From positions 620,001 to 684,000 of the forward strand of contig NZ_JAMTCH010000005.1 of NCBI RefSeq assembly GCF_024171735.1: a DNA stretch of 64,000 nt, written 5' to 3'. This document shows, in pieces, positions 18,638-58,040 of the stretch. Source of the stretch: Prauserella alba (lineage in GTDB: Bacteria > Actinomycetota > Actinomycetes > Mycobacteriales > Pseudonocardiaceae). The notes below the pieces were generated by a model. The model worked only from the letters and a program-made list of their open reading frames with translations. It was not told the DNA's origin and searched no databases. The translations under genes and the position numbers were made by a program. Within the stretch, counting starts at the first letter, position 1. The number at the start of each line of letters is the position of its first letter.

Positions 18638-18770
18638 AGAGACACGCTTCGCGTGGCCGCCTCGCCCGCCCGTCTCCCACCACCACCCAAGGAGACACGC
18701 TCCGCGTGGCCGCCTAGCCCGCCCGTCTCCCACCACCGCCCAAGGAGACACGCTTCGCGTGGCCGCCTAC
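18638..18770. repeat. 53-bp tandem repeat, about 2.5 copies
   Basis: Units starting GACACGCTTCGCGTGGCCGC begin at 18641, 18694 and 18747, a 53-bp period. Each contains the short hairpin CACGC-TTC-GCGTG. The repeat ends about 10 bp before the menG start codon. Confidence 0.9.
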
Positions 18771-22430: not shown

Positions 22431-23189
22431 ATGGCTGACGAAGACGCGCAGAACCCCCGGACCGGAGGGGAGAACTCCAGCGCCGAACGCCCCGAGTCGG
22501 GTCTCGAACCGCGGGGTGCCGAACCGGCCCGGGTGGTCGCCGGTCACGAGCGCCGGGGAATGTTCGGCGTTTCCGGCAGTGGTGACACGTCCGGGTACGG
22601 CGGACTGCGCCTGCCCGCGTACTCGCCACCGCCCGCGGAGCGTCCCTACGGCGGCTGGTTCGACGATTTCGCCGACGAGTTCTACGCCGCGCTCGCGGAG
22701 AACGGAATTCCGGCCGAGGCGATCCTGCAGGTGACCGTCGACCGCGGGGAGATCACTTTCTACGTCGACCGCGACCACCTCGTCGCGATGTGCCGCGTGC
22801 TGCGTGACGACGAGGGACTGCGCTTCGAGATGTGCAGTTCGGTGTCCGGTGTGGACTACGGCGAGGACGTGCCGCAGCGGCTGCACTCGGTGTACCACCT
22901 GCTGTCGATGACCTATCGGCGCCGCATCCGGCTCGAGGTCACGATGGACATCGACGACCCGCACGTGCCGTCCATTGTGGAGATCTATCCGACGGCGGAC
23001 TGGCACGAGCGCGAGGCCTACGACATGTTCGGCATCGTCTACGACGGCCACCCCGCGCTGACCCGCATCCTCATGCCCGACGACTGGGAAGGGCATCCGC
23101 AGCGCAAGGACTACCCGCTCGGCGGCATTCCCGTGGAGTACAAGGGCGCGGAGATCCCGCCGCCGGACACCCGGAGGTCGTACTCGTGA
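22431..23189 (+). CDS. nuoC: NADH-quinone oxidoreductase subunit C
   Basis: NuoC is a peripheral-arm subunit that packs against NuoD near the quinone site. The conserved block is [30 protein letters not shown], followed by [11 protein letters not shown], near residues 185-225. The first 75 residues are a disordered acidic extension common in actinobacteria. The stop overlaps a GTG that opens a 14-residue reading frame reaching into the nuoD start (see the linker entry). Confidence 0.95.
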
Positions 23190-23230
23190 CCCGTCCGTTT
23201 TCTTCCCGCTGGAGGCGCCATGACCACTAG
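23186..23230 (+). other. Linker mini-ORF between nuoC and nuoD
   Basis: A GTG overlapping the nuoC stop (GTGA) opens a 14-codon frame that ends 11 nt inside nuoD. It contains CTTCCCGCTGGAGGCGCC, whose GGAGG is the nuoD ribosome site. It resembles the linkers at nuoE-nuoF and korA-korB, though it is more diverged. Translation is not proven. Confidence 0.35.
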
Positions 23231-24593
23231 CGACCACATCGCCGACGTGTCCACCGGCACGGACACGACTCCGGAGGGTTCGGACAGTGCGCCGTACGCC
23301 GAGTCGCGCGAGACCACCGAGGGCCCGGTCTACACCGTCAGCGGCGGCGACTGGGACGACGTGCTCTCGGACGCGTCGCACGACGAGCGCATGGTCATCA
23401 ACATGGGGCCGCAGCACCCGTCGACGCACGGCGTGCTGCGCCTGGTGCTGGAGATGGAGGGGGAGACCGTCACCCAGCTGCGCTCGGTGATCGGCTACCT
23501 CCACACCGGCATCGAGAAGAACTGCGAGTACCGCAACTGGACGCAGGGCGTCACGTTCGTGACGCGCATGGACTACCTGTCTCCGCTGTTCAACGAGATG
23601 GGCTACTGCCTCGCGGTGGAGAAGCTGCTCGACCTCGAGGTGCCTCGCCGTGCCCAGCTGTTGCGGGTGCTTCTCATGGAGATCAACCGCATCGGGTCGC
23701 ACTTCGTCTACATCGCCACCGGCGGCATGGAGCTCGGCGCGACGACGGCGATGACGCTCGGCTTCCGCGAGCGCGAAGAGGTGCTGCACCTGCTCGAACA
23801 CCTCACGGGCCTGCGGATGAACCACGCGTTCATCCGGCCCGGCGGTCTGGCGCAGGACATGCCGGAGGACTTCGTCGAGAAGGTCACCGAGTTCTGCGAG
23901 GTCATGGACGAGCGGTTGCCGCTCTACGACAAACTCTTCACCGGCCAGCCGATCTGGCGGAACCGGCTCAAAGGCGTGGGTTACCTGCCGCTCGATGCGT
24001 GCCTCGCGCTCGGCATCACCGGTCCGGTGCTGCGGTCCGCCGGGGTGGCGTGGGACCTGCGCAAGACCGAGCCCTACTCCTGCTACGACGAGTTCGACTT
24101 CGAGGTGCCGACGTCGACGGACGCCGACTGCTGGGCCCGCTACCTGCTGCGGGTCGAGGAGATGCGCCAGTCGTTGCGGATCATCCGGCAGGTCCTCGAG
24201 AAGCTCGAGCCCGGCCCGGTGATGGTGGAGGACCGCAAGGTCGCCTGGCCCGCGCAGCTGTCGGTCTCCAGTGACGGCATGGGCAACTCGCTCGACCACG
24301 TCCGCAAGATCATGGGCCAGTCGATGGAGTCGTTGATCCACCACTTCAAGCTGGTCACCGAGGGCTTCCGGGTGCCACCGGGGCAGGCGTACTCGACGGT
24401 CGAGTCGCCGCGCGGCGAGCTCGGTTTCCACCTCGTCTCCGACGGCGGCACGCGGCCGATGCGGGTGCACGTACGTGAACCGAGCTTCGTCAACCTCCAG
24501 TCGATGCCCGCGATGTCGGAGGGCGGCCTCGTCGCCGACGTCATCGCGGCCGTCGCCTCGATCGACCCGGTGATGGGGGGAGTGGACCGATGA
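23220..24593 (+). CDS. nuoD: NADH-quinone oxidoreductase subunit D
   Basis: NuoD is the 49-kDa-type subunit that forms the quinone pocket with NuoB. The 457-residue protein has [21 protein letters not shown] (quinone-site histidines) near residue 61, [14 protein letters not shown] near 117 and the C-terminal [16 protein letters not shown]. The first 55 residues are a polar extension. The stop overlaps the nuoE start (ATGA). Confidence 0.96.
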
Positions 24594-25369
24594 CCAGCGA
24601 CACCACCAGCAGCGACACCACCGGCAGCGGTGTCCCGGCGACGGCGACCACGTTCGGCGAGGACACGGTGACCGATGCGCGTGAGCTGATCGCGCGGTAC
24701 CCGCAGTCGCGGTCGGCGCTGCTGCCGTTGCTGCACCTGGTCCAGTCCGTGGAAGGCTACGTCAGCCAGCAGGGCATGACCTTCTGCGCCGAGCAGCTCG
24801 GCCTGGCGGAGGCCGAGGTCGCGGCCGTGGCGACGTTCTACACGATGTACAAGCGCAAGCCGTGCGGTGAGCATCTGGTGAGCGTGTGCACGAACACGCT
24901 GTGCGCGGCGATGGGCGGCGACGCGATCTACAAGCGACTCCAGGAACACCTCGGCTCCGACGGGGCGCCGCTCGGCCACGAGGAGGTCGCGGGCCCCCCG
25001 GGGGAGAGCGGTTCGCTCATGCTCGAGCACGCCGAATGCCTCGCCGCGTGCGACCTGGCCCCGGTGCTGCAGGTCAACTACGAGTACTTCGACAACCAGA
25101 CCGAGCAGAGTGCGGTCGAGCTCGTCGACGCATTGCGGCGCGGTGACAAGCCGCATCCGACGCGGGGTGCTCCGCTGTCGGACTTCAAAACCGTCGAGCG
25201 ACGGCTGGCAGGCCTGCTGCCCGAGGACGACGACGAGTTCTGGACCGAAGTGGACGGACCGTCGCAGGCGGTCGAGACGGTGCGCGGCGCCCAGCTGGCC
25301 GCCGACCGCAACTGGACGGCACCGCCGGCGCCCGAGGACGTGCCGATGCCGGAGGTGGAGGCGAAATGA
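24590..25369 (+). CDS. nuoE: NADH-quinone oxidoreductase subunit E
   Basis: NuoE is a thioredoxin-fold subunit with the 2Fe-2S cluster N1a. The ligand cysteines are in [11 protein letters not shown] and [18 protein letters not shown], near residues 98-165. The C-terminal 70 residues form an acidic Trp-containing tail beyond the E. coli length, as in other actinobacteria. The start overlaps nuoD by 4 nt, and a mini-ORF linker separates it from nuoF. Confidence 0.95.
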
Positions 25370-25404
25370 ACGCCGAAGCACGCTTTCCCCTGGAGGCGCG
25401 ATGA
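25366..25404 (+). other. Linker mini-ORF between nuoE and nuoF
   Basis: An ATG overlapping the nuoE stop (ATGA) opens a 12-codon frame, [12 protein letters not shown]. Its TGA overlaps the nuoF start (ATGA). The GGAGG ribosome site of nuoF lies inside it. The architecture and peptide resemble the korA-korB linker MTDDALFPAEAAV. This suggests ribosomes pass from nuoE to nuoF by two coupled terminations. Peptide production is not shown. Confidence 0.5.
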
Positions 25405-26753
25405 ACAGCTCGGAGAAGGCGCCGTTGACGCCGGTACTGACGAAGCGGTGGTTGTCGCCGCAGTCGTGGCGGTTGCACACGTACGAGAAGCTCGAGGGTT
25501 ACACCGCGGTGAGGAAGGCCCTGAGCGCCTCGCCGGAGCAGGTCGTGCAGATGGTGAAGGACGCGGGTCTGCGCGGTCGTGGCGGTGCGGGCTTCCCGTC
25601 GGGTGTGAAGTGGGGCTTCATGCCGTCCGACGAGGCCAAGCCGCACTATCTGGTGATCAACGCCGACGAGGGAGAGCCGGGCACGTGCAAGGACATTCCG
25701 CTGATGATGGCGGATCCGCACGCGCTCATCGAGGGCTGCATCATCGCGGCGTACGCGATGCGTTCGCACCACTGCTTCATCTACATCCGCGGTGAGGCGC
25801 TGCATCCGATGCGGAGGCTGTACGCGGCGGTGCGGGAGGCGAAGCAGGCCGGCTATCTGGGCCACGACATTCTCGGGTCGGGTTTCGACCTGGAGATGAC
25901 GGTGCACGCGGGCGCCGGTGCGTACATCTGCGGTGAGGAGACGGCGCTGCTCGACTCGCTCGAGGGCCGCCGGGGCCAGCCGCGGCTGAAGCCGCCGTTC
26001 CCCGCCGCCTCGGGCCTGTACGCGGCGCCGACGACGGTCAACAACGTGGAGACGATCGCGACGGTGCCGTCGATCATCAACGGCGGTTCCGAGTGGTTCC
26101 GGGCGATGGGCAGCGAGAAGTCGCCAGGGCCGAAGATCTATTCGGTCTCCGGCCACGTCGAACGCCCCGGCCAGTACGAGGCTCCGCTGGGTACGACGCT
26201 GCGGGAACTGCTCGAGATGTGCGGTGGGATGAAGGATGGCGTCCCGTTGAAGTTCTGGACGCCGGGCGGTTCGTCGACGCCGCTGTTCACCGCCGAACAC
26301 CTGGACGTCCCCTTGGACTTCGAGGGTGCCGCCGAGGCCGGGTCGATGCTCGGCACGACGGCGGTGCAGGTGTTCAACGAGACGGTGTCCGTGCCGTGGG
26401 CCGTGATGAAGTGGACGCAGTTCTACGAGCACGAATCCTGTGGCAAGTGCACGCCGTGCCGCGAGGGCACGTTCTGGCTGGCGCAGGTGCTGGAGCGCAT
26501 GGTCGACGGTCGCGGCAGCGAGGAGGACATCGACACGCTGCTGGACGTCTGCGACAACATCGGCGGGCGTTCGTTCTGTGCGCTCGGCGACGCCGCGGTC
26601 AGCCCGATCCAGAGCGGCATCAAGTACTTCCGTGACGAGTTCCTCGCGCTGTGCGAGTCGAACCGGCCCGAGCCGGCGGGGGCGGCCGAGTCCCCCGAGT
26701 CGGCGCAGGGCAGTGATTCCCAGGCCGCGCAACCGGTTGGAGCACAGGCATGA
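25401..26753 (+). CDS. nuoF: NADH-quinone oxidoreductase subunit F
   Basis: NuoF binds NADH and FMN and holds 4Fe-4S cluster N3. The 450-residue protein has [17 protein letters not shown] (NADH site) near residue 60, [19 protein letters not shown] (FMN site) near 170 and [12 protein letters not shown] near 350. A short Ala/Glu/Ser tail follows. GGAGG precedes ATG 25401. The stop overlaps nuoG (ATGA). Confidence 0.96.
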
Positions 26754-29317
26754 CCGTGGCACCGGAGAAGTCCGATGTGGACGTACCGGAGGGGTACGTC
26801 AAGCTCACCATCGACGGCGAGGAGGTCGTCGCGCCGAAGGGTGAGCTGCTGATCCGCACCGCAGAACGGCTCGGCACGGTGATCCCGCGGTTCTGCGACC
26901 ATCCGCTGCTCGACCCGGCGGGCGCGTGCCGGCAGTGCCTGGTCGAGGTGGAGATGAACGGCCGCCCGATGCCGAAGCCGCAGGCCTCGTGCACGATGAC
27001 GGTCGCCGACGGCATGGTCGTCAAGACGCAGGTGACGTCGGAGGTCGCGGACAAGGCGCAGCAGGGCGTGATGGAACTGCTGCTCATCAACCACCCGCTG
27101 GACTGTCCGATCTGCGACAAGGGCGGCGAGTGTCCGCTGCAGAACCAGGCGATGGCCCACGGCCGATCCGATTCGCGCTTCGTCGACAAGAAGCGCACGT
27201 TCCCGAAGCCGTTGCCCATCTCGTCGCAGGTGCTGCTCGACCGGGAACGCTGCGTACTGTGCCAGCGCTGTACCCGGTTCTCCGATCAGATCGCGGGCGA
27301 CCCGTTCATCGACCTGCTCGAACGGGGCGCCCACCAGCAGATCGGCACCTCGGAGACGGCCGACGTGCTCGACGCCGCATCGACTTCGGCGGAGTCGGAT
27401 GCCGCCTCAGCGGGAGGGGGTGCTTCGGCGGAGCCCGATGCCGCCTCGGCGGGCGGGCAGCCGTTCCAGTCGTACTTCTCGGGCAACACCATCCAGATCT
27501 GCCCGGTCGGTGCGCTCACCAGCGCCCAGTACCGCTTCCGCTCGCGGCCGTTCGACCTGGTGTCGACGCCGAGCGTGTGCGAGCACTGCTCGTCGGGCTG
27601 CGCGGAGCGGACCGACTTCCGCCGCGGCAAGGTGATGCGCAAGCTCGCGGGTGAGGACCCGGACGTCAACGAGGAGTGGATCTGCGACAAGGGCAGGTTC
27701 GCCTTCCGCTACGCCGCGGCCGAGCAGCGGATCCGCAGGCCGCTGGTGCGCAGTGCCGACACCGGCGAGTTGGAGGAGGCGTCCTGGACCGAGGCGCTCC
27801 GGGCCGCGTCCGCCGGACTGGCGAAGGCGCGTGACGGCAAAGGCGTCGGGGTGCTGCCCGGTGGCCGGGTGACGATCGAGGACGCCTACGCCTACAGCAA
27901 GTTCGCCCGCGTGGCACTGCGCACGCACGACGTCGACCACCGCGCGCGGGCGCACTCGGCCGAGGAACTGGACTTCCTGGCCTCCCGGGTCGCCCGCGAC
28001 GGCGGCCCGTCGGGCGGTGGCGTGACCTTCGCGGACCTGGAGACGGCCCCGGCCGCTCTGTGCGTCGCGTTCGAACCGGAGGAGGAGGCGCCCGCCGTGT
28101 TCCTCCGGCTCCGCAAGGGTGCCCGAGCCGGCAACGTCAAGGTTGTCCACATCGGGCAGTGGGCCTCGCCCGCCGTCGACAAGACCTTCGGTGAACTCCT
28201 CGCCTGCTTGCCCGGCGGAGAGGCCGATGCCGTCGACGGCATCGCCCGGCACGCCCCCGACCTCGACGAGGCGTTGCGTTCCGACGGCGCGGTCGTGCTG
28301 GTCGGGGAGCGCGCCGCCGAGGTGCCGGGGCTGCCGACGGCGCTGCACCGGCTGGCCGAACGCACCGGTGCGCGGCTCGCCTGGATCCCGCGCCGAGCGG
28401 GTGAACGAGGCGCCGTCGAGGCAGGCACGTTGCCGACGCTGCTGCCGGGCGGACGGCCCGTCACCGACGCCGACGCCCGCGCCGAGGTGGAACGCCACTG
28501 GGGTCTCGAAGCGGGGACGTTGCCCGCGGAGCCGGGCCGCGACGTGACGGGGATGCTGAACGCGATCGTGACCCGCGACCTGGACGGACTGCTCGTCGGC
28601 GGGGTCGACCTCGACGACCTGCCCGACCCGGCACTCGCCCGCAAGGCGTTCGACGCGGCCGGGTTCGTCGTGTCGCTGGAGTTGCTGCCGAGCACCGTCA
28701 CGCCCTACGCGGACGTGGTGCTGCCGATCGCTCCCGTCGACGAGAAGAGCGGCACGTTCGTCAACTGGGAGGGGCGGCGCAGGCCGTTCACGGTGACGCT
28801 CGACGGCACCGGTGCGCTGCCGGACTGCCGGGTGCTCGACACGCTCGGCGTCGAGATGGACGCCGACCTGTTCACCCAGACGCCCCAGGCCGCGCTCGGT
28901 GACCTCGACCGGCTCGGCACCCCGGAGGGAACTGCCCCCAAGGGCACTTTGGTTGCACTCAGCGCAACCAAAGTGCCCCCGGGGGCGTCGGCCGCTCCGC
29001 CTGCACCCGGGTCGGGGCAGGCACTGCTGGCCACGTGGCGGCAGCTCATCGACGACGGATCGCTGCAGATCGACGAGCCCGCGCTCGCCGGCACCGCGCG
29101 ACGCGTCGTCGCCCGCCTGTCGCGGGTGACCGCCGACGGGCTCGGCGACCACGTGACGGTGTCGACCGACCGCGGGTCGGTGACCCTTCCCGTCGAGATC
29201 GTCGACATGCCCGACGGCGTCGTGTGGCTGCCGGGGAACTCGCCGGGGTCGAAACTCCGCGCCACGCTCGGCGCAGGCCACGGTGCGGTCGTCGACATCG
29301 CCGGGGGTGAGCGGTGA
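26750..29317 (+). CDS. nuoG: NADH-quinone oxidoreductase subunit G
   Basis: NuoG is the large iron-sulfur subunit linking NuoF/E to NuoI. The 855-residue protein has the 2Fe-2S ligands ([20 protein letters not shown]), the ligands of two 4Fe-4S clusters ([15 protein letters not shown] and [10 protein letters not shown]) and a third set ([10 protein letters not shown]). A degenerate molybdopterin-oxidoreductase domain follows. Two repeat-derived stretches interrupt it without breaking the frame: two 13-residue units near residues 213-238 (39-nt unit, reverse orientation), and [16 protein letters not shown] near 730, encoded by the 53-bp palindrome. Confidence 0.95.
27385..27462 (-). repeat. 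39-nt unit, two tandem copies inside nuoG
   Basis: Units beginning TTCGGCGGAG start at 27385 and 27424, a period of exactly 39 nt (13 codons). In reverse complement they match about 29 of 39 bases of the units ahead of the metal-transporter ATPase. They encode an Ala/Ser/Gly-rich loop between cluster domains of NuoG. Confidence 0.7.
28934..28986. repeat. 53-bp palindromic repeat, copy 4, inside nuoG
   Basis: Two 23-bp arms flank ACTCAGC. The outer dinucleotide differs between the arms in the mirror sense of copy 1. Together with one flanking base the copy adds 54 bp, or 18 codons, and keeps the nuoG frame open. Confidence 0.95.
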
Positions 29318-44624: not shown

Positions 44625-45689
44625 CTACTCGACCGTCCAGGTGTCCTTGCCGGTGAGCAGGGCCTGCAGGTCGCCCGGCTTGGCCTCCTGAGCCTGCTGC
44701 ACCTGGGCGCGGGCCTGGTCGTCGTAGGTCTCCCGCTCGACCTGGCGGAAGATGCCCGTCGGGATGTGGTTGAGGTGCTGGTCCCCGATGCGCGACAGCG
44801 CGAACCCGTACGCCGTGTCCTCGATCGACGGGTCGTGCACGACCAGGTTGTCCTCGCCGATGTCGGCGACCTTGCCGACGTCGAGGCCGCCGTAACCCGT
44901 GGTGGTCACACCGAACTCGCCCTCGGCGCCGAACCGGATCGGCTCGCCCGGGGTCAGCGGGATCAACCGCTGCGCCGCCTCGTCCTTGTCCTTGAGCATG
45001 TCGAATGCGCCGTCGTTGAAGATCGGGCAGTTCTGGTAGATCTCCACGACCGCACTGCCGCGGTGCTGGGCGGCGGCGCCGAGGACCTCCGTGAGGCCCT
45101 TCTTGTCCGAGTCCATCGCCCGGCCCACGAACGTCGCCTCGGCACCCAGCGCGAGGGAGACCGGGTTGAACGGGGTGTCCACCGAACCCATCGGAGTCGA
45201 CTTGGTGACCTTGCCCGGTTCCGAGGTCGGCGAGTACTGCCCCTTCGTCAGACCGTAGATCCGGTTGTTGAACAGCAGGATCTTCAGGTTGACGTTGCGG
45301 CGCAGCGCGTGGATCAGGTGGTTACCGCCGATGGACAGGGCGTCGCCGTCACCGGTCACGACCCACACCGACAGGTCCGGCCGGGTCGTCGCCAGGCCGG
45401 TCGCGATCGACGGTGCACGGCCGTGGATCGAGTGCATGCCGTAGGTGTTCATGTAGTACGGGAACCGGCTCGAACAGCCGATCCCGGAAATGAACACGAT
45501 GTTCTCGCGCTTGAGGCCCAACGTCGGCAGGAACGACTGGATGGTGTTGAGCACGATGTAGTCACCGCACCCCGGGCACCAGCGCACTTCCTGGTCGGAC
45601 TTGTACTCCTTGGCCTTCTGCGGCTCATCGGTCGTGGGGACCAGGTCGAGCCCACCCATGCTGGGCAGGCCCAGGTCGGTGGCTGTCAT
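44625..45689 (-). CDS. korB: 2-oxoacid:ferredoxin oxidoreductase, beta subunit
   Basis: KorB binds thiamine diphosphate and a 4Fe-4S cluster and, with KorA, oxidises 2-oxoglutarate to succinyl-CoA while reducing ferredoxin. The 354-residue protein has RWCPGCGDYIVLNTIQ near residue 37, SGIGCSSRFPYY near 68, the ThDP motif VTGDGDALSIGGNHLIHALRRN and LLFNNRIYGLTKGQYSPTS. The ATG overlaps the stop of a 13-residue linker frame that starts in the korA stop. Confidence 0.95.
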   Translation of the reverse strand: MTATDLGLPSMGGLDLVPTTDEPQKAKEYKSDQEVRWCPGCGDYIVLNTIQSFLPTLGLKRENIVFISGIGCSSRFPYYMNTYGMHSIHGRAPSIATGLATTRPDLSVWVVTGDGDALSIGGNHLIHALRRNVNLKILLFNNRIYGLTKGQYSPTSEPGKVTKSTPMGSVDTPFNPVSLALGAEATFVGRAMDSDKKGLTEVLGAAAQHRGSAVVEIYQNCPIFNDGAFDMLKDKDEAAQRLIPLTPGEPIRFGAEGEFGVTTTGYGGLDVGKVADIGEDNLVVHDPSIEDTAYGFALSRIGDQHLNHIPTGIFRQVERETYDDQARAQVQQAQEAKPGDLQALLTGKDTWTVE

Positions 45690-45727
45690 ACTGCCGCCTC
45701 CGCGGGAAAGAGTGCGTCGTCGGTCAT
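45686..45727 (-). other. Linker mini-ORF between korA and korB (39-nt unit family)
   Basis: The ATG of MTDDALFPAEAAV overlaps the korA stop (ATGA), and its TGA overlaps the korB start (ATGA). Its GGAGG is the korB ribosome site. The sequence matches the units repeated before the metal-transporter ATPase (ALxPAEAA) and resembles the nuoE-nuoF linker. Confidence 0.6.
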
Positions 45728-47640
45728 ACTGCGGTGACCTCCCTGAGGATGTCGGTGAAGACGCTTTCGAGTTCTTCGGCCTTGAAGGGCAGTCCGGCGA
45801 CCTTGGTGTAGGACTGGATGTCGGTCAGGTACTTGGCGCGCAGCAGCATCGACAGCTGGCCGAGGTTCATCTCGGGCACGACCACGTGGTCGTAACTGGC
45901 GAGGACCTCACCGAGGTTGGCCGGCAGCGGGTTGAGGTGGCGCAGGTGGGCCTGGGCGATCGGCATGCCCTTGGCACGCACCCGCCGCGCCGCGGCGCCG
46001 ATCGGACCGTAGGTCGACCCCCAGCCGAGGACCAGTACGCGCGCGTCGCCGGTGGGATCGTCGACCTCGACGTCGGGCACGGCCACACCGTCGACCTTGG
46101 CCTGGCGCAGCCGCACCATCTTCTCGTGGTTGTCGGGGTCGTAGGAGATGTTGCCCTTGCCCTCGGCCTTCTCCAGACCGCCGATGCGGTGCTGCAGCCC
46201 CGCCGTGCCCGGCAGCGCCCACTCGCGGGCCAGCGTTTCCGGGTCGCGCTGGTACGGCCAGTGCTCACCGGACCCGTCCGGCGCGTTGGGCTCGGACGCG
46301 AACGTCACCGACAGGTCGGGCAGGGTCGAGACGTCGGGGATCAGCCACGGCTCGGAGCCGTTGGCGACCGCGCCGTCGGAGAGCAGCAGCACCGGCGTGC
46401 GGTAGGTCAGTGCGATGCGGGTCGCCTCGAGCGCGATGTCGAAGCAGTCGGCAGGCGTCGCCGGGGCGACGATCGGCACCGGGCATTCGCCGTTGCGGCC
46501 GAAGTAGGCCTGCAGCAGGTCGGCCTGTTCGGTCTTGGTCGGCAGGCCCGTCGAAGGCCCGCCGCGCTGTACGTCGATGACCACCAGCGGCAGCTCGGTC
46601 ATGACGCCGAGGCCGATGGTCTCGGCCTTCAACGCGATCCCCGGGCCGGACGTCGAGGTGACGCCCAGCGCACCGCCGTAGGCGGCGCCGAGAGCCGCGC
46701 CGATGCCGGCGATCTCGTCCTCGGCCTGGAACGTGGTGATGCCGAAGTTCTTGTGCTTGGACAGCTCGTGCAGCACGTCGGAGGCAGGCGTGATCGGGTA
46801 CGTGCCCAGCAGCACCGGCAGTCGCGACTGCTGCCCGGCCGCGACGATGCCGTAGGCGAGCGCGGTGTTGCCCGTGATCTGCCGGTAGGTGCCCCTCGGC
46901 AACTTGGCGGGGGCGATCTCGAACGTCGTGCCGAACGCCTCGGTCGTCTCGCCGTAGTACCAGCCCGCGCGGAAGGCCAGCACGTTCGCCTCGGCGACCT
47001 CGGGCTTCTTGGCGAACTTCTCACGGAGGAACGCCTCGGTGCCCTCGGTCGGCCGGTGGTACATCCACGACAGCAACCCGAGGGCGAACATGTTCTTGCA
47101 GCGCTCGGCGTCCTTCTTGCCGAGTCCGGTGTCGGCGAGCGCGCCCTGCGTCAGGGTCGACATGGCGACCTCGTGCACCTCGAACGCCGACAGCGAGTCG
47201 TCCTCGAGCGGGTTGGACTCGTAGTCGACCTTGGCCAGGTTGCGCTTGCCGAACTCGTCGGTGTTGACGATGACGGTGCCGCCCTTGGGCACGTCGCCGA
47301 TGTTGGCCTTGAGCGCCGCCGGGTTCATCGCCACCAGCACGTCGGGGCGGTCGCCGGGGGTGAGGATGTCGTAGTCGGCGAAGTGCACCTGGAAGCTCGA
47401 TACGCCCGGGATGGTGCCCTGAGGTGCGCGGATCTCCGCGGGGAAGTTCGGCAGCGTCGCGAGGTCGTTGCCGAACGCCGCCGCCTCCGACGTGAAGCGG
47501 TCGCCGGTCAGCTGCATGCCGTCGCCGGAGTCACCGGCGAACCGGATCACGACACGCTCGAGCCGGTTGACCTCTGTCGGTCGGGACGCCGACAGCGCGT
47601 CGGTGCCGGCCGCTGCGCTGCCGTTCGCACTCGTGCTCAT
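45724..47640 (-). CDS. korA: 2-oxoacid:ferredoxin oxidoreductase, alpha (gamma-alpha fusion) subunit
   Basis: The 638-residue protein is the fused gamma-alpha form. The gamma domain (RVVIRFAGDSGDGMQLTGDRF, residues 30-230) is followed by the pyrimidine-binding alpha domain with TASDVLHEL, the EDEIAGIGAALGAAYGG loop and TSTSGPGIALKAE. This matches the oxygen-tolerant actinobacterial KorA (Rv2455c). GAGAGGGA lies upstream of ATG 47640. It is the first gene of the korAB pair. Confidence 0.95.
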   Translation of the reverse strand: MSTSANGSAAAGTDALSASRPTEVNRLERVVIRFAGDSGDGMQLTGDRFTSEAAAFGNDLATLPNFPAEIRAPQGTIPGVSSFQVHFADYDILTPGDRPDVLVAMNPAALKANIGDVPKGGTVIVNTDEFGKRNLAKVDYESNPLEDDSLSAFEVHEVAMSTLTQGALADTGLGKKDAERCKNMFALGLLSWMYHRPTEGTEAFLREKFAKKPEVAEANVLAFRAGWYYGETTEAFGTTFEIAPAKLPRGTYRQITGNTALAYGIVAAGQQSRLPVLLGTYPITPASDVLHELSKHKNFGITTFQAEDEIAGIGAALGAAYGGALGVTSTSGPGIALKAETIGLGVMTELPLVVIDVQRGGPSTGLPTKTEQADLLQAYFGRNGECPVPIVAPATPADCFDIALEATRIALTYRTPVLLLSDGAVANGSEPWLIPDVSTLPDLSVTFASEPNAPDGSGEHWPYQRDPETLAREWALPGTAGLQHRIGGLEKAEGKGNISYDPDNHEKMVRLRQAKVDGVAVPDVEVDDPTGDARVLVLGWGSTYGPIGAAARRVRAKGMPIAQAHLRHLNPLPANLGEVLASYDHVVVPEMNLGQLSMLLRAKYLTDIQSYTKVAGLPFKAEELESVFTDILREVTAV

Positions 47641-47726
47641 GGGCCAGGAAATCCCTCTCTGACGACTGGCGCGCCCAGCGCGCAATACTTCGAGATTACT
47701 TGTTGTTTTCAGGGCGAGCGGACGGG

Positions 47727-47745
47727 TGTGATTTGCCTTACCTAT
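47727..47745. promoter_or_regulatory. Candidate DtxR/IdeR-like iron box upstream of korA
   Basis: Read leftward, this 19-bp stretch (ATAGGTAAGGCAAATCACA) matches 13 of 19 positions of the IdeR/DtxR consensus. The left half-site TAGGTNAGGC is nearly complete and the right half is poor. It lies about 90 bp upstream of korA. Confidence 0.25.
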
Positions 47746-47820
47746 GGTGCACGAGTGATGACCCCCGGATTCCACGACCTGAGACGGCGACGGCTCCGCC
47801 GAGCGTATGTTTCAGGGTAA

Positions 47821-48340: not shown

Positions 48341-49306
48341 ATGACAGGCGATCACGCGCTGCCCGTACGTGTCCCGACCCCCCGCCACTACCTCATGTGC
48401 CCGCCGCGGTATTTCGCCGTGGAGTACTCGATCAACCCGTGGATGGACCCCGACCGGCCCGTCGACACCGAGCTGGCCATGCGGCAGTGGACGACGCTGC
48501 GTGACACCTACCGCGAACTGGGCCACACGGTCGACGAGGTGCCGCCGCAGCCTGGTCTGCCGGACATGGTGTTCGCCGCCAACTCGGGAACCGTCGTGGG
48601 CGGCCGGGTGCTCGGATCGCGGTTCCGCGCACCGGAGCGTGCCGCCGAGGCCGAGCACTTCCGGCGTTGGTTCGTGGAGAACGGGTTCCGCGACTTGACG
48701 ATGCCGCGGCAGATCAACGAGGCCGAGGGCGACTTCGTGTGGACCGGCGCGCTACTGCTGGCCGGCACCGGGTTCCGCACCGATCCCGGCGCCCACGCCG
48801 AGGCACAGGAGGCGCTCGGGGTGCCGGTGGTGTCCCTGCAGCTGGTCGACGAGCGCTACTACCACCTCGACACGGCGCTGTTCGTGCTCTCCGGCGAAGC
48901 CGACGGTGCCGGCCCCGTGGACGGCACCGGTGCCACCGCCCGTGTTGCGGATTCGGGGCCCCGTGTTGCGGGTTCCGGAGACCGTGTTGCGGGTTCCGGG
49001 GGAGCCGGCCGTGTCGGTGGTGGTTCCCGGGCGCAGATCGCCTATTACCCGGAGGCGTTCTCGGAGGGTTCGCGGCGGGTGCTGCGGCGGCTGTTCCCGG
49101 ACGCGGTCGTCGCCACGAAGGCCGACGCGGAGTGTTTCGGGCTCAACGGGATCTCCGACGGCCGCCACGTCGTGCTTCCCGCCGAGGCGACCGGCCTGGC
49201 CGAACAGCTCACCGCGCGGGGCTACGAGGTGCGGTTCGTCGACATCTCCGAACTGCGCAAGGCCGGCGGCGGGCCGAAGTGCTGCACCCTGGAGATCCGC
49301 AAGTAG
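48341..49306 (+). CDS. ddaH: Dimethylargininase (amidinotransferase fold)
   Basis: The enzyme hydrolyses N-omega-methylated arginine to citrulline and methylamine. The 321-residue protein has MCPPRYFAVEYSINPWM at the N-terminus, DMVFAANSGTV, the catalytic histidine in RYYHLDTALFVL and the nucleophilic cysteine in the final GGPKCCTLEIRK. A Gly/Ala/Ser/Arg-rich insert (about residues 195-230: RVADSGP, RVAGSGD, RVAGSGG) is encoded by three 21-bp dispersed repeats. It adds a loop after the His strand without a frameshift. An Lrp regulator is divergent. Confidence 0.88.
   Translation: MTGDHALPVRVPTPRHYLMCPPRYFAVEYSINPWMDPDRPVDTELAMRQWTTLRDTYRELGHTVDEVPPQPGLPDMVFAANSGTVVGGRVLGSRFRAPERAAEAEHFRRWFVENGFRDLTMPRQINEAEGDFVWTGALLLAGTGFRTDPGAHAEAQEALGVPVVSLQLVDERYYHLDTALFVLSGEADGAGPVDGTGATARVADSGPRVAGSGDRVAGSGGAGRVGGGSRAQIAYYPEAFSEGSRRVLRRLFPDAVVATKADAECFGLNGISDGRHVVLPAEATGLAEQLTARGYEVRFVDISELRKAGGGPKCCTLEIRK
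48941..49003. repeat. 21-bp dispersed repeat, site 2 (three units, inside ddaH)
   Basis: Units beginning CGTGTTGCGG start at 48941, 48962 and 48983. The 21-bp period equals seven codons, so the array is translated as three heptapeptides in frame. Confidence 0.9.
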
Positions 49307-49377
49307 CCGCGTGTCCTGCGCCCACCCGTCGCCCGACCGCCCCCCAACGCCGGGCTGACACGCGACTGTGCGTTGCG

Positions 49378-49440
49378 CGTGTTCTGCACCCAGGCCCGCG
49401 TGTTCTGCACTCGGAACGGCGTGTGTGCGCCCCGGATCTG
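49378..49440. repeat. 21-bp dispersed repeat, site 3 (variant units)
   Basis: Three units beginning CGTGT start at 49378, 49399 and 49420. The first two read CGTGTTCTGCAC, the variant also seen at 55836. The array lies between convergent ddaH and the MBL hydrolase gene. Confidence 0.75.
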
Positions 49441-50781: not shown

Positions 50782-50813
50782 AGGAGCACTGTCGACCGCC
50801 GTCGCGGAGACGT

Positions 50814-50897
50814 CAACACGCGTCCCGGAAAGCGCAACACGCGTCCCGGAATCCGCAACACGCGCCCCGGAACCTGCAACACGGCCCCTAGTGCAGG
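50814..50897. repeat. 21-bp dispersed repeat, site 4 (four units)
   Basis: On the plus strand CAACACG recurs at 50814, 50835, 50856 and 50877. This is the reverse orientation of sites 1-3. The array lies between the ABC permease gene and the VOC gene. Confidence 0.85.
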
Positions 50898-51773: not shown

Positions 51774-52728
51774 GGCCACGCTCCTCCCGCAGCCTGCCCG
51801 CTCGGGCGCGCGCGATGACGCCGCGTCGCGGGGCCAGCACCACCGACAGCACCGCGAGTGCCGTCGCCAGCAGCACGATCACCGGCCCGGCAGGCAGTTC
51901 CGCACGCCCGGAGACGAGCCCGCCCGCCGCGCCGCACGCCGCCCCGATGACGGCGGACAACGGCAGCAGGACCGCCAGCCGGGTGGTCAGCTGCCGCGCG
52001 GCGACGACCGGAGCGACCAGCAACGCGACCATCAGGATCGCCCCGACGGTGCGCACGCCGAGCACCACGGCGAGCGCCAGCAGTCCCGTGCTGGCGGCGT
52101 CGACGATCCACGTGCGCACCCCGGCGACGGCCGTGAACCCCGGATCGAACGTCGCCGACCGCAGCAGCCGGAATCCCACCAGCACCACCGCGACGGCGAC
52201 ACCCGCTCCCGCCAGCGCGACGACGATGTCGCGTTCCACCATGCCCGCGGTCTGCCCGAGCAGGTACTCGTCCAAGCCGGACTGCTGGGCGTTGCCGCTG
52301 CCGGAGATGCCGGTGAGCAGCACGATGCCGAGCGTCAGCGACACCGAGAGGACGACGCCGATGGCCGTGTCGGACCGCAGTCGCCCGGTGCGTTCCAGCG
52401 CGATCATGGCGAACGCCGCGAGCGTCGCCGAGATCGCAGCGCCGAGGAGCAGCAGTTCCGGCACCTTGGCGCCCGTGAGCAGGAACGCCACCGCCACACC
52501 CGCGAGAGTGCCGTGGCTCATCGCGTCGCCGAACATGCTCCGCTGCCGGAGCACGGCCAGCGGCCCGAGGAGCCCCGCGACGAAGCCGACCACGGCCGTG
52601 CCGACGACCACCACGGCGTCCGGGTAGGACAGCGGCAGCGCCTCCAGCAGCCCACCGAGCGAGCCTGCCTGCAGCGTTCCCGTCTGCAGTGCTCCGGCCT
52701 GCAGCGAGCCGGTCACGACGGCACTCAT
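51760..52728 (-). CDS. Metal ABC transporter permease (first subunit)
   Basis: This is a second ABC-3-family permease, of 322 residues, with VVVVGTAVVGFVAGLLGPLAVLRQRSMFGDAMSHGTLAGVAVAFLL near residue 40, GVVLSVSLTLGIVLL and VRTVGAILMVALLVAPVVAARQLT. The first 25 residues repeat the pattern LQAGALQTGTLQAG. It starts inside the stop region of the ATPase gene (ATGA-type overlap). Confidence 0.88.
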   Translation of the reverse strand: MSAVVTGSLQAGALQTGTLQAGSLGGLLEALPLSYPDAVVVVGTAVVGFVAGLLGPLAVLRQRSMFGDAMSHGTLAGVAVAFLLTGAKVPELLLLGAAISATLAAFAMIALERTGRLRSDTAIGVVLSVSLTLGIVLLTGISGSGNAQQSGLDEYLLGQTAGMVERDIVVALAGAGVAVAVVLVGFRLLRSATFDPGFTAVAGVRTWIVDAASTGLLALAVVLGVRTVGAILMVALLVAPVVAARQLTTRLAVLLPLSAVIGAACGAAGGLVSGRAELPAGPVIVLLATALAVLSVVLAPRRGVIARARAGRLREERGHVTR

Positions 52729-53453
52729 CGGGTCGCCAACGGCGCCATGCCGTAGGCACGTTCGAGGTGCTCGGGCGTGAGCACGTCGGCGGGCGCTCCC
52801 GCGGCGACGACGGTGCCCGCCATGAGCACCGCGTGCTCGAAGCTGTCCAGCACCTCGCGCAGGTCGTGGTGCACCGCGATGACCGAGACGCCCTCGCGGC
52901 ACAACCCCGTGAGGATCTCCAGCAGCGCCTTCTCGGTGCGCGCGTCGACAGCGGTGAACGGCTCGTCGAGCACGATGAGATCCGCACGCTGGGCCAACGC
53001 CCTCGCGAGGAACACCCGCTGCCGCTGCCCCCCGGAGAGCTCGTCGATCGGACGGTCCGCCAGGTCCGCGACGCCGACCTGCGCCATCGCACCCGCCACG
53101 CAGTCGTCGTCCGCGGGCGTCAGCCTGCGCAGCCAGCCGCGGTGCGGGTAGCGGCCCATCTCCACGACCTGCACCGCCGTGATGGGGAAGTCCTTCGCGA
53201 CGGCATCCGACTGCGGCACGTAGGCCACGCGTTTGCGGACCCGGCGCAACGGCTGTCCCAGCCAGCGCACCGTGCCACGCACCGACGGCACGAGCCCGAG
53301 CGCCGCCTTGACCATCGTCGACTTGCCCGCACCGTTCGGCCCCACGACGGCGCTGAGCGTGCCCGCCGGGATCTCGACGTCGACGCCGGCCAGCACGGGC
53401 CGCCCGCCGTACGAGGCACTCATGCCCTGCAAACGGAGTGCCGGTTCGGTCAT
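52725..53453 (-). CDS. Metal ABC transporter ATP-binding protein
   Basis: The 242-residue ATPase has Walker A VVGPNGAGKST near residue 38, the ABC signature LSGGQRQRVFLARALAQ near 140, Walker B LIVLDEPFTAVD and the H-loop HHDLREV. It energises the two permeases. GGGAGG lies 7 nt before ATG 53453, so that start is preferred. The frame stays open upstream through five repeat units to an ATG at 53645 that overlaps the binding-protein stop (ATGA). A 306-residue form with a 64-residue repeat-derived leader is therefore possible. Confidence 0.9.
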   Translation of the reverse strand: MTEPALRLQGMSASYGGRPVLAGVDVEIPAGTLSAVVGPNGAGKSTMVKAALGLVPSVRGTVRWLGQPLRRVRKRVAYVPQSDAVAKDFPITAVQVVEMGRYPHRGWLRRLTPADDDCVAGAMAQVGVADLADRPIDELSGGQRQRVFLARALAQRADLIVLDEPFTAVDARTEKALLEILTGLCREGVSVIAVHHDLREVLDSFEHAVLMAGTVVAAGAPADVLTPEHLERAYGMAPLATR

Positions 53454-53645
53454 GCGTCCGCCTCCCGTGGGAACGAGTACATCGGTCGTGCCGGCCCGCT
53501 CCCCGGGAGAGAGCGCGACGGCGGTGTTGGTTGCCGCCTCCGCGGGGGAGAGTGCGTCGGCGGTGTTGGTTGCCGCCTCCGCGGGAAGGAGTGCGTCGGC
53601 GGTGCTGCTCGCCGCCTCCGCGGGAGGGAATGCGCCGGTGGTCAT
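53454..53645 (-). repeat. 39-nt unit, five tandem copies ahead of the ABC ATPase
   Basis: Read leftward from 53645, four 39-nt units and one of 36 nt follow each other. Each carries a GACGCACTC-like stretch, CCCGCGGAGGCGGC (a strong ribosome-site-like motif) and an ACC-rich end. Read as codons they give ADALxPAEAATNT-type peptides in frame with the ATPase. A single unit links korA and korB. Confidence 0.85.
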
Positions 53646-54658
53646 GTCAGTGCCTCCGTGAGGGTGGCCGCGTTGGCGCGCAACATGCCCAGGTAGCTGC
53701 CGTCGGGGCCGGTGGAGTCGGAGTACAGCTCGCCGCCGACGCTCACCTCGCCGCCGCGGTGCCGGGCGGCGGCGACCATCGAGTCGACGGTCTGCCGCGA
53801 CACGCTCGTCTCGAGGAACACGGCGGGCAGGTTCTCGTCGGCGAGCAGTTCGGCCACGCGCGCCACGTCGGCGGTCGTCGCCTCCTGCTCGGTGGAGATG
53901 CCCTGGATCGCCACGACGTCCATGCCGAACGCGTCGCCGAAGTAGCGGAACGCGTCGTGCGAGGTGACGAGTGTGCGGCGAGCTGCGGGAATGCGGTCGA
54001 TCGTGCGCTGGACCTCGTCGGCCGCGGCGCGGATCTCGTCGTTGTAGGCCTCGCCGCGGCGGCGGTAGTCGGCGGCGTGCTCCGGGTCGAGGTCGGCGAG
54101 ACGCTCGGCGACGGCGTCGACGACGTGCGTCCACAGTGCGGGGTCGTGCCAGATGTGCGGGTCGTGCTCCTCCTCCGGGGCCGACCCGGCGGGCGGGCTC
54201 AGCAGCTCGCCGGTCGGCACTGCCTCACCTGCCATCAGCACCGGCTTCGTGCGGCCGACCTCGTCGAGGGTCCGCTGCAGGGAACCCTCCAGGTAGAGCC
54301 CGACGGCGATCACCGCGTCGGCACGGCGCATCTCCCGCAGATCCCCCGCCTTGGCCTGGTACAGGTGCGGATCGACACCGGGGCCCATGAGCCGCACGGT
54401 CTCGACGTCGTCGCCGCCGACGTGGCGCACCGTGTCGTCGAGGAACGTCGTGGTGGTGACGAGCCGGAGCGTGTCGTTGTCGGCGCTCCCGGGCTGGAGG
54501 GCGTAGCCGACGGCGCCGGAGATCGCCAGGACGAACACCACACCGAGCGCCACGAGCGCGCGTCGATCACGCCTGCGGGCGCGACCGCGCCGCTGTGCCT
54601 GCCTGCGGCGTTCGTCGGCGTTCGCGGCGGCGATGTGGCCGTCACCAGTGTCGTTCAT
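53642..54658 (-). CDS. Zn/Mn ABC transporter substrate-binding protein
   Basis: The 338-residue protein of the TroA/ZnuA cluster A-I has an N-terminal membrane anchor (ALVALGVVFVLAISGAVGYAL, near residues 34-54) instead of a lipobox cysteine. Metal ligands are seen in GPGVDPHLYQ, HDPHIWHDP, TSHDAFRYFG and the distal acidic FLETSVS region. It captures Mn2+ or Zn2+ and delivers it to the downstream permeases. It heads the operon. The TTCGG-TGCG-CCGAA inverted repeat near 54675-54688 is a possible metalloregulator site. Confidence 0.88.
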   Translation of the reverse strand: MNDTGDGHIAAANADERRRQAQRRGRARRRDRRALVALGVVFVLAISGAVGYALQPGSADNDTLRLVTTTTFLDDTVRHVGGDDVETVRLMGPGVDPHLYQAKAGDLREMRRADAVIAVGLYLEGSLQRTLDEVGRTKPVLMAGEAVPTGELLSPPAGSAPEEEHDPHIWHDPALWTHVVDAVAERLADLDPEHAADYRRRGEAYNDEIRAAADEVQRTIDRIPAARRTLVTSHDAFRYFGDAFGMDVVAIQGISTEQEATTADVARVAELLADENLPAVFLETSVSRQTVDSMVAAARHRGGEVSVGGELYSDSTGPDGSYLGMLRANAATLTEALT

Positions 54659-55745: not shown

Positions 55746-56063
55746 CGCCTGCGCGTGCCGTGTTGCGGATTCCGGGGCGCGTGTTGCGTTTCCAGGGGCC
55801 CGTGTTGCGCTTTCCGGGATCGGTTTGCGTCGCCGCGTGTTCTGCACTCAGCACCGCGTATTCCGCGCTCGGTACCGCGTGTTCTGCATTCCGGCAGGCC
55901 CGGCGTTCAGCGATCGGCCGGCGTGCGACCGCCTTTCCCGTCGTCTTCAACACCCTGACCTGCGATGCGCGCCCGCGAACCCGCAACACGGCCCCGCGAA
56001 CCCGCAACACGGGCACCGGGGTGCAGTCGTGCCACGGCGCCGGGTGGCGGAGGGGCAACACCG
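55746..56063. other. Intergenic region filled with 21-bp repeats
   Basis: No gene is seen between convergent htpX and the TetR gene. Rightward units fill 55759-55898, and reverse-oriented units lie at 55984-56014. Both the CGTGTTGCGG and the CGTGTTCTGC variants occur. Confidence 0.7.
55759..55898. repeat. 21-bp dispersed repeat, site 5 (about six units, both variants)
   Basis: Units start at 55759, 55780 and 55801 (CGTGTTGCG type), then after a degenerate unit at 55836, 55857 and 55878 (CGTGTTCTGC or CGTATTCCGC type). Reverse units CAACACG at 55984 and 56005 complete the site. Confidence 0.85.
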
Positions 56064-57968: not shown

Positions 57969-58001
57969 CCCGCCCGGTTGTGTCGCGTGCCCCGGAATTC
58001 G

Positions 58002-58040
58002 CAACACGGCCCCCGGAGGGCGCAACACGGCCACGGTGGC
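58002..58040. repeat. 21-bp dispersed repeat, site 6 (two reverse units)
   Basis: CAACACG begins at 58002 and 58023, 21 bp apart, between convergent MFS and rmlA genes. Confidence 0.75.

Follow-up and report, generated by a model that had tools for sequence, protein, structure and literature searches.

Short repeats at stop/start overlaps between adjacent genes of Prauserella alba and related Pseudonocardiaceae

The mini-ORFs that link nuoE to nuoF and korA to korB in Prauserella alba look like copies of a short dispersed repeat, about 38 nt long as a single unit or 39 nt per unit in tandem, lying where the stop codon of one gene overlaps the start codon of the next. Sequence comparisons make it likely that these linkers belong to hairpin-forming repeats, mobile or formerly mobile, that occupy DTGA overlaps and would be tolerated there by keeping a ribosome relay going. 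By this means, the repeat probably keeps translation of the two flanking genes chained. The linkers were noticed in a stretch of 64,000 nucleotides of the P. alba genome, called here the window.

Linkers in the window

The features concerned are the following, N being the length noted for each linker and R2 the sequence profile of the short unit.

22431..23189, plus strand: nuoC (PF00329)
23186..23230, plus strand: diverged short unit between nuoC and nuoD, a frame-shifted GTG mini-ORF running into nuoD, N = 34, without R2 match
23220..24593, plus strand: nuoD (PF00346)
24590..25369, plus strand: nuoE (PF01257), joined to nuoD by a plain 4-nt ATGA overlap without linker
25366..25404, plus strand: short unit with 12-codon mini-ORF between nuoE and nuoF, ATGA...ATGA, N = 35; R2 match at genome C3:645368-645399, E 1.5e-4
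25401..26753, plus strand: nuoF (PF01512, PF10589)
27402..27432, minus strand: short-unit match (profile R2) antisense within nuoG
44625..45689, minus strand: korB-type subunit (PF02775)
45686..45727, minus strand: short unit with 13-codon mini-ORF between korA and korB, ATGA...ATGA, N = 38; R2 E 1.5e-8
45694..45725, minus strand: hairpin portion of the korA-korB unit, whose 3' strand holds GGAGG
45724..47775, minus strand: korA-type 2-oxoacid:ferredoxin oxidoreductase subunit (PF01855, PF01558)
52725..53453, minus strand: ABC transporter ATPase gene (PF00005)
53451..53645, minus strand: short-unit array at the junction of the znuA-like and ABC ATPase genes, 39-nt period, N = 192
53642..54658, minus strand: znuA-like metal-binding protein gene (PF01297)

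Pfam matches back NuoC, D, E, F and G and both KOR subunits. The initial annotation had described a 12-codon frame overlapping both nuoE and nuoF, the same layout at korA-korB and a diverged version at nuoC-nuoD, and all three descriptions agree with the coordinates. At nuoE-nuoF, where the double overlap is exact, the mini-ORF begins with the ATG at 25366, over the nuoE TGA (25367-25369), and its own TGA (25402-25404) overlaps the nuoF ATG at 25401. The korA-korB linker, on the minus strand, is an exact double overlap of 13 codons: the korA TGA overlaps the mini-ORF ATG at 45727, the peptide reads MTDDALFPAEAAV and the mini-ORF TGA, ending at 45686, overlaps the korB ATG at 45689. At nuoC-nuoD the start is a GTG, not an ATG (23186, in GTGA) and the stop lies at 23230; the nuoD ATG is at 23220 and the frame enters nuoD by 11 nt. 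Judged by its position and by comparison with congeners, this third linker is a frame-shifted relative of the short family, because five congeners hold two to four units there and the last unit of one of them (G062) ends in an identical TTCTTCCCGCTGGAGGCGCC-ATGA.

A fourth junction of the window holds an array. The znuA-like gene stops at 53644-53642, the ATPase ATG is at 53453 and the array is in frame with the ATPase, one extra base in its last unit making it read in frame into that gene. Five units are counted by eye, four by R2 and 3.7 copies by TRF.

The pattern ATGA-N20-50-GGAGG-N3-10-ATGA is present twice in the window, where 0.10 would be expected (two or more in 0 of 100 shuffles), and 25 times in the whole 5.6-Mb genome. 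Only four of these 25 places lie between two callable genes, as judged by a coding-frame rule, and all four have the exact mini-ORF geometry; the strict double-ATGA pattern was for this reason rejected as a definition of the family. The string TTTCCC-N0-8-GGAGG-N1-12-TGA is found exactly twice in the genome, in the nuoE-nuoF and korA-korB linkers, and the sequence that they share is therefore not generic. Its CTTTCCC form occurs in 14 of 41 genomes, intermixed with unrelated matches. TTTCCC, confined in its own genome to the two linkers, was dropped as a marker in favour of profile R2. The excess over shuffled sequence that the initial annotation expected for such junctions is found in the window (2 against 0.10), but the exact string, with its two sites, is not enriched genome-wide.

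Occupied and empty junctions in relatives

The three junctions were compared in seven congeneric genomes, that of the window (G000) included, with units counted by eye. The nuoE-nuoF junction is empty in G033 and G061, holds a short unit in G000 and a long repeat (see below) in G060, G063 and G064, and holds a long and a short one side by side in G062. For korA-korB, no unit is present in G064, one in each of G000, G033, G060 and G061, four in G062 and three in G063; G058, from another genus, has three there. G060 lacks the unit at nuoC-nuoD, where G000 has a single one and each of the other five genomes two to four.

Wider samples give similar pictures. Among 80 NuoF loci from named genomes and MAGs, inspected by eye, the usual state of nuoE-nuoF is a plain ATGA, GTGA or TAATG overlap, and five (L027, L032, L043, L047 with two tandem copies, and L060) have an insert of about 75 nt between two copies of ATGA. 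Among 30 korA-korB loci from 60 genomes, the unit is present in L106 (the window), in L107 and, as three copies, in L113, from another genus. Three of the 30 (L123, L128 and L132) hold unrelated-looking inserts, which indicate that spacers at korA-korB also arise by other routes, and the remaining loci have no linker or a few bases. At nuoC-nuoD, Prauserella endophytica (L029) has a 38-nt unit and P. flavalba (L028) a bare ATGA; one unit is also present in L053, L067 and L071. Since the empty sites in relatives are plain ATGA overlaps, the linkers are inserted sequences flanked on either side by ATGA.

In the composite linker of G062 (L171 / L185), the frame of the short unit, in tandem with the long one, enters nuoF without a stop, and this unit may act as an N-terminal extension of nuoF. 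The possibility that the nuoE-nuoF linker of the window is a truncated remnant of the long element was rejected, both elements being adjacent in G062.

The short repeat and its hairpin

A typical single copy of the short repeat is DTGACCGCCGACGCACTCTTTCCCGCGGAGGCGGCATC-ATGA, 38 nt in length, and the units align to the consensus ACCGCCGACGCACTCTTTCCCGCGGAGGCGG. The filters of the profile searches were strict and the number of candidates scored was capped, so that all copy numbers obtained with R2, and with R1 for the long family, are lower bounds. Outside P. alba, copies of the short family occupy 18 distinct junctions between genes, in seven other genomes. The best R2 match reaches E<=1e-4 in at least 14 of 41 relatives and E<=0.1 in at least 29 of 41, the matches in other families of the order at this looser threshold being probably due to chance. 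Among 150 genomes of the order, at least 11 have a match at E<=1e-4, nine of them Pseudonocardiaceae and two from other families.

In the genome of the window, ten R2 matches were counted; among the eight listed, seven are confined to 29 kb inside the window, a single array accounting for four, and the spread of the repeat in this genome looks local. G017 has at least 57 matches (E<=0.1) across many contigs, and many of its copies lie outside callable junctions. Nine of 41 short clusters fall within callable ORFs, six of them antisense; one cluster (L356) is counted inside a callable ORF and was yet scored as an exact junction in the geometry test. No Rfam match at the gathering score was obtained in eight element loci and the window.

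Two observations concern weaker likenesses. The antisense match in nuoG (27402-27432) has stronger counterparts of about 35 bits in G033, G061 and G062, apparently at the same place; these stronger congener matches suggest an in-frame insertion in NuoG. Elsewhere in the P. alba genome, G000:C9:10676-10717 (L025) is another mini-ORF with an exact double overlap; it faintly resembles the nuoE-nuoF linker (CGCCGAA-CAC) and is possibly a decayed copy.

The short unit forms a helix CCGCC-GA-xGY / RCx'-GA-GGCGG. Across 123 short matches (106 distinct), 92.7% of the cells of this helix are paired against 87.1% in shuffles, and 33 double changes are observed against 11.2 in shuffles (0 of 500). The covariation comes mainly from one pair (columns 10-26), which is C-G in 68 cases, A-U in 18, G-C in 9, G-U in 3 and U-G in 2, and the signal could partly reflect inherited subtypes. 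According to the initial annotation, a TTTCCC/GGAGG stretch shared by the linkers supplies the ribosome site of the next gene. The string common to nuoE-nuoF and korA-korB is non-generic. In the consensus hairpin, the GGAGG of the next gene is in the 3' strand and TTTCCC in the loop.

Folding of single sequences gives mixed results. Eight further copies were folded singly: four clearly fold better than shuffles (L336, z -4.0; L351, -2.9; L343, -2.6; the znu unit of the window, -2.3), whereas the MFE folds of the other four (L331, L353, L185 and L029) are not clearly better. Those of the nuoE-nuoF and korA-korB linkers of the window are no better than shuffles; in the MFE fold of the nuoE-nuoF linker, UUUC pairs with GGAGG.

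The long repeat and its target-matched arm

A second family, of about 75 nt and with the core CCGACCGGGTGCGGGTGTCCCGCA, occupies the same kind of site as the short unit. The 17-base heart of its core is present in all seven congeners and in other members of the family Pseudonocardiaceae. Profile R1 has matches in at least 31 of 41 genomes at E<=0.01, and the strong full-length matches are found only inside that family. In the P. alba genome, two long copies precede the S14 ribosomal protein gene, and others lie at an ABC ATPase/permease gene junction, at zwf-opcA and between the genes of a carrier protein and a siderophore-interacting protein. An extra hairpin-like insert (TTGGGCCCCCG...) interrupts the core in L306, L319 and L292, and a different one is found in L294; L306 and L319, with total lengths of 113 and 116, keep the frame despite this insert.

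The stretch that runs from GGAGG to the start codon is repeated in the long copies. Furthermore, the arm between the first start and the core is complementary to the copy's own target, for example GGCTCATGGCTG...CAGCCATGAGCC in L287 and its twin L311. The mean score of arms against their own target is 7.96, compared with 5.40 against other targets (13 dissimilar targets of 64 copies; 0 of 2000 permutations), and 5.04 compared with 4.16 when the scoring is limited to the nine bases preceding the start codon (1 of 5000 permutations). With relatives not collapsed, the arm fits the upstream target copy better than the downstream one in 28 cases, worse in 3 and equally in 6. Watson-Crick pairing with the arm is possible for the base that follows DTGA in 21 of 29 cases, a number reached in 0 of 5000 shuffles. 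This match could be due either to reverse copying of the target at insertion or to selection rebuilding it. A more speculative scenario, to which we give a rather low probability, is that stop/start overlaps became, by convergence, a safe harbour for two unrelated-looking families, and that the long one, on insertion, produces an inverted copy of its own target (direct - inverted - direct). Each copy would then have a stem fitted to the ribosome site and start codon of the recipient gene, a coupling hairpin made for each site through a copying reaction that has not been described. The stem of the long family raises the concrete question of how it is made.

Conservation of the stop/start relay

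The geometry of the copies was scored in 100 stretches around chosen top R1 and R2 matches, a non-random sample, with flanking genes called from open frames and codon-position GC. A gene was called on both sides of 69 clusters, clusters without a called flank being excluded, and nine with a coding score <0.25 were dropped, which left 60 sites with both genes called and an identifiable overlap; the resulting counts depend on this gene calling and on the choice of sites. A site is exact when the mini-ORF that starts in the upstream overlap stops overlapping a start in the downstream frame with the same offset, for which the chance is 1/3; downstream starts placed by the GC3 rule may be mispositioned, and the test uses the frame only. 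Junctions were taken as independent when their downstream proteins were not linked at >45% identity.

In the long family, 30 of 42 sites are exact; when related downstream genes are counted once, the figure is 18 of 26 (p 2e-4 against 1/3). A tandem relay, in which the first mini-ORF stops exactly on the start of the next unit, occurs at five further sites (L292, L294, L307, L313 and L322), and six fail (L282, L284, L286, L295, L296 and L302). L329, one of three apparent relays among the 26 independent long junctions, is spurious (a 26-nt coincidence). The short family is exact at 15 of 18 callable junctions, with one more tandem relay and downstream genes that are all distinct; L340 and L354 fail. 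When the three named junctions are followed across species, the geometry is exact in 19 of 22 linkers, the misses being nuoC-nuoD in the window and in G061 and the nuoE-nuoF composite of G062.

The lengths follow the type of overlap. Exact linkers at the named junctions measure 35, 38, 77, 80, 116, 131, 155 and 161, all 2 mod 3. Exact long copies at ATGA overlaps measure 71, 74, 77, 83, 86, 89, 113 and 116, or 146 and 149 for pairs, and those at the 8-nt ATGGCTGA/GTGGCTGA overlaps measure 73, 82 and 85. Length mod 3 thus agrees with the type of overlap. However, all eight of the 8-nt sites that are exact or form a relay are followed by members of a single gene family; the member downstream of L272, the one searched with Pfam, is gltD-like. 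The ninth 8-nt site, L284, fails. The agreement of length with overlap type gives a numerical test of whether mobile repeats survive in operons by means of a ribosome relay. Among exact short sites, the first mini-ORF is mostly of length 38, and the geometry of this family may be a property of unit length rather than of selection; short arrays of other lengths keep it, except the znu array of the window (N = 192).

The long core is read in three frames among the exact sites (11/7/1 of the 19 where the core was found, out of 30, relatedness not collapsed). Because length varies, 18 of 26 independent junctions are exact and the core is read in different frames, it looks as if the stop/start overlap is conserved and not the peptide.

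Proposed mechanism and alternative explanations

The short repeat would insert into a DTGA where a stop overlaps the next start, which would leave DTGA at each end. A ribosome finishing the upstream gene could then reinitiate at the mini-ORF, open the hairpin in which the new GGAGG is enclosed, and reach, 12-13 codons on, a stop lying atop the next start codon, where a second restart would take place. Such a relay would keep the operon coupled, and the insertion would thereby be tolerated; the mini-ORF would act as a ferry for ribosomes and its peptide would be a by-product. We infer from these comparisons that the repeats have moved by transposition, that ribosomes reinitiate on them and that tolerance is the cause of the conserved geometry. 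No mobiliser was found: Y1 transposases, present in 7 of 41 genomes, show no relation to copy number. The P. alba genome has one copy of Y1_Tnp, and none was found in G017 (57 short matches) or in G001 (36 long matches). A Y1 transposase as mobiliser is therefore unsupported.

The linkers could instead be a regulatory device selected at these very junctions, the hairpin hiding the downstream ribosome site so that nuoF or korB is translated only with the upstream gene. The position of GGAGG in the 3' strand of a covarying hairpin and, in the long family, the pairing of the arm with the upstream start region would fit such a device. However, the linkers come and go among close relatives at all three junctions, and the flanking genes, as sampled, are as diverse as expected for a repeat (S14, zwf-opcA, gltB-gltD-like and permease genes for the long family; permease pairs and DUF2397-DUF2398 for the short one), which makes this explanation possible but doubtful. 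The initial annotation had proposed a reusable coupling module rather than chance overlaps. This proposal survives in part: the linkers are related, the family occupies 18 distinct junctions in other genomes and the stop/start relay is mostly retained, but the pattern is not abundant in its own genome, and the linkers are a repeat inserted into overlaps that are empty in relatives and not purpose-built.

Production of a functional short peptide with an FP-L/A-EA motif is very unlikely. The korA-korB series does keep one frame (TxDxLxPAEAxx), its in-frame 39-nt arrays included, but the nuoC-nuoD copies are in another frame upstream of GGAGG, the long core changes frame between exact sites, and variation in the loop codons extends to positions 1 and 2. 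Production of a peptide, envisaged in the initial annotation, is thus not supported as a function, the long core being read in different frames and the variability of the short family being greatest in the loop, codon positions 1 and 2 included.

Local slippage, by which ribosome site and start codon would have been duplicated in place and independently at each junction, has hardly more than a slight probability. The long copies repeat the stretch from GGAGG to the start and the tandem arrays indicate that slippage does occur, but closely similar 33-nt sequences recur from one junction to another, across genera and in two further families of the order. ATGA overlaps are frequent in actinobacterial operons and ribosome sites are common at high GC, so a frame left open by luck might be thought of, but the probability of such a coincidence is negligible given the two occurrences against 0.10 in the window, a shared string unique in 5.6 Mb, the orthologous empty sites and the result of the family search.

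Relation to known repeats

The repeats described here resemble the mycobacterial interspersed repetitive units (MIRU), reportedly described by Supply et al. in 1997. MIRU are short dispersed and tandem repeats whose copy number varies at some loci (PMC12548453, PMC3914561), with a unit length of 46-101 bp (PMC3914561); they lie at a start codon and have an internal ORF that overlaps the next start by 4 nt (PMC12548453, PMC3914561). The present repeats are similarly dispersed, at 26 independent junctions for the long family and 18 for the short one, the short copies of the P. alba genome being few and local. They also vary in tandem copy number (0, 1, 3 or 4 units at korA-korB and 0-4 at nuoC-nuoD among the seven congeners, by eye). 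Their mini-ORF overlaps the next start by 4 nt at most scored sites, some long copies lying at 8-nt overlaps. Single plain long copies (71-89 nt) fit the MIRU length, whereas the short unit (38-39 nt) is shorter. Unlike MIRU, the present repeats are found in Pseudonocardiaceae and two further families of the order. The covarying hairpin of the short family and the target-complementary arm of the long one may be further differences. The short unit may thus be said to work like a MIRU without being filed as one, the comparison being one of descriptions. What was a mycobacterial curiosity is extended to another actinobacterial family, for which many genomes and empty sites are available for comparison.

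Other small repeats share some of these properties. Rickettsia palindromic elements are small repeats that are also found inside genes, without breaking the frame, whereas here the clearest home is the stop/start overlap and intragenic copies are weakly supported. According to PMC3733652, REP sequences are palindromic repeats of 20-40 bp located preferably between co-oriented or convergent genes, and some overlap coding ends or sit inside ORFs. The hairpin of the short unit is likewise a palindrome of 20-40 bp, but neither a GTAG nor a CGTC tag is seen by eye at the ends of the short consensus, which have DTGA on both sides, and, in contrast to the REP/RAYT association, neither the short nor the long repeats are linked to Y1 transposases (7 of 41 genomes).

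Translational coupling by overlapping ORFs, or by short ORFs that deliver ribosomes to a downstream start, is reported in PMC12548453. The function proposed here would be the same, the ORF being carried in this case by a dispersed repeat. The titles and first lines of abstracts returned by a limited search of the open-access literature mention neither such elements in Pseudonocardiaceae nor a target-matched stem. The junctions affected include those of respiratory-chain, ribosomal-protein, zwf-opcA and gltBD-like genes, at which effects on subunit ratios would be measurable.

Other tandem repeats in the window

The window also holds tandem repeats of period 21 at 48939-49001, 49376-49424, 50800-50883, 55758-56012 and 57990-58032, several of which contain an GTGTTGCGG-like motif and others its complement; they are perhaps another dispersed family. 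A tandem repeat of period 53 (2.5 copies, 94% matches) lies at 18639-18769.
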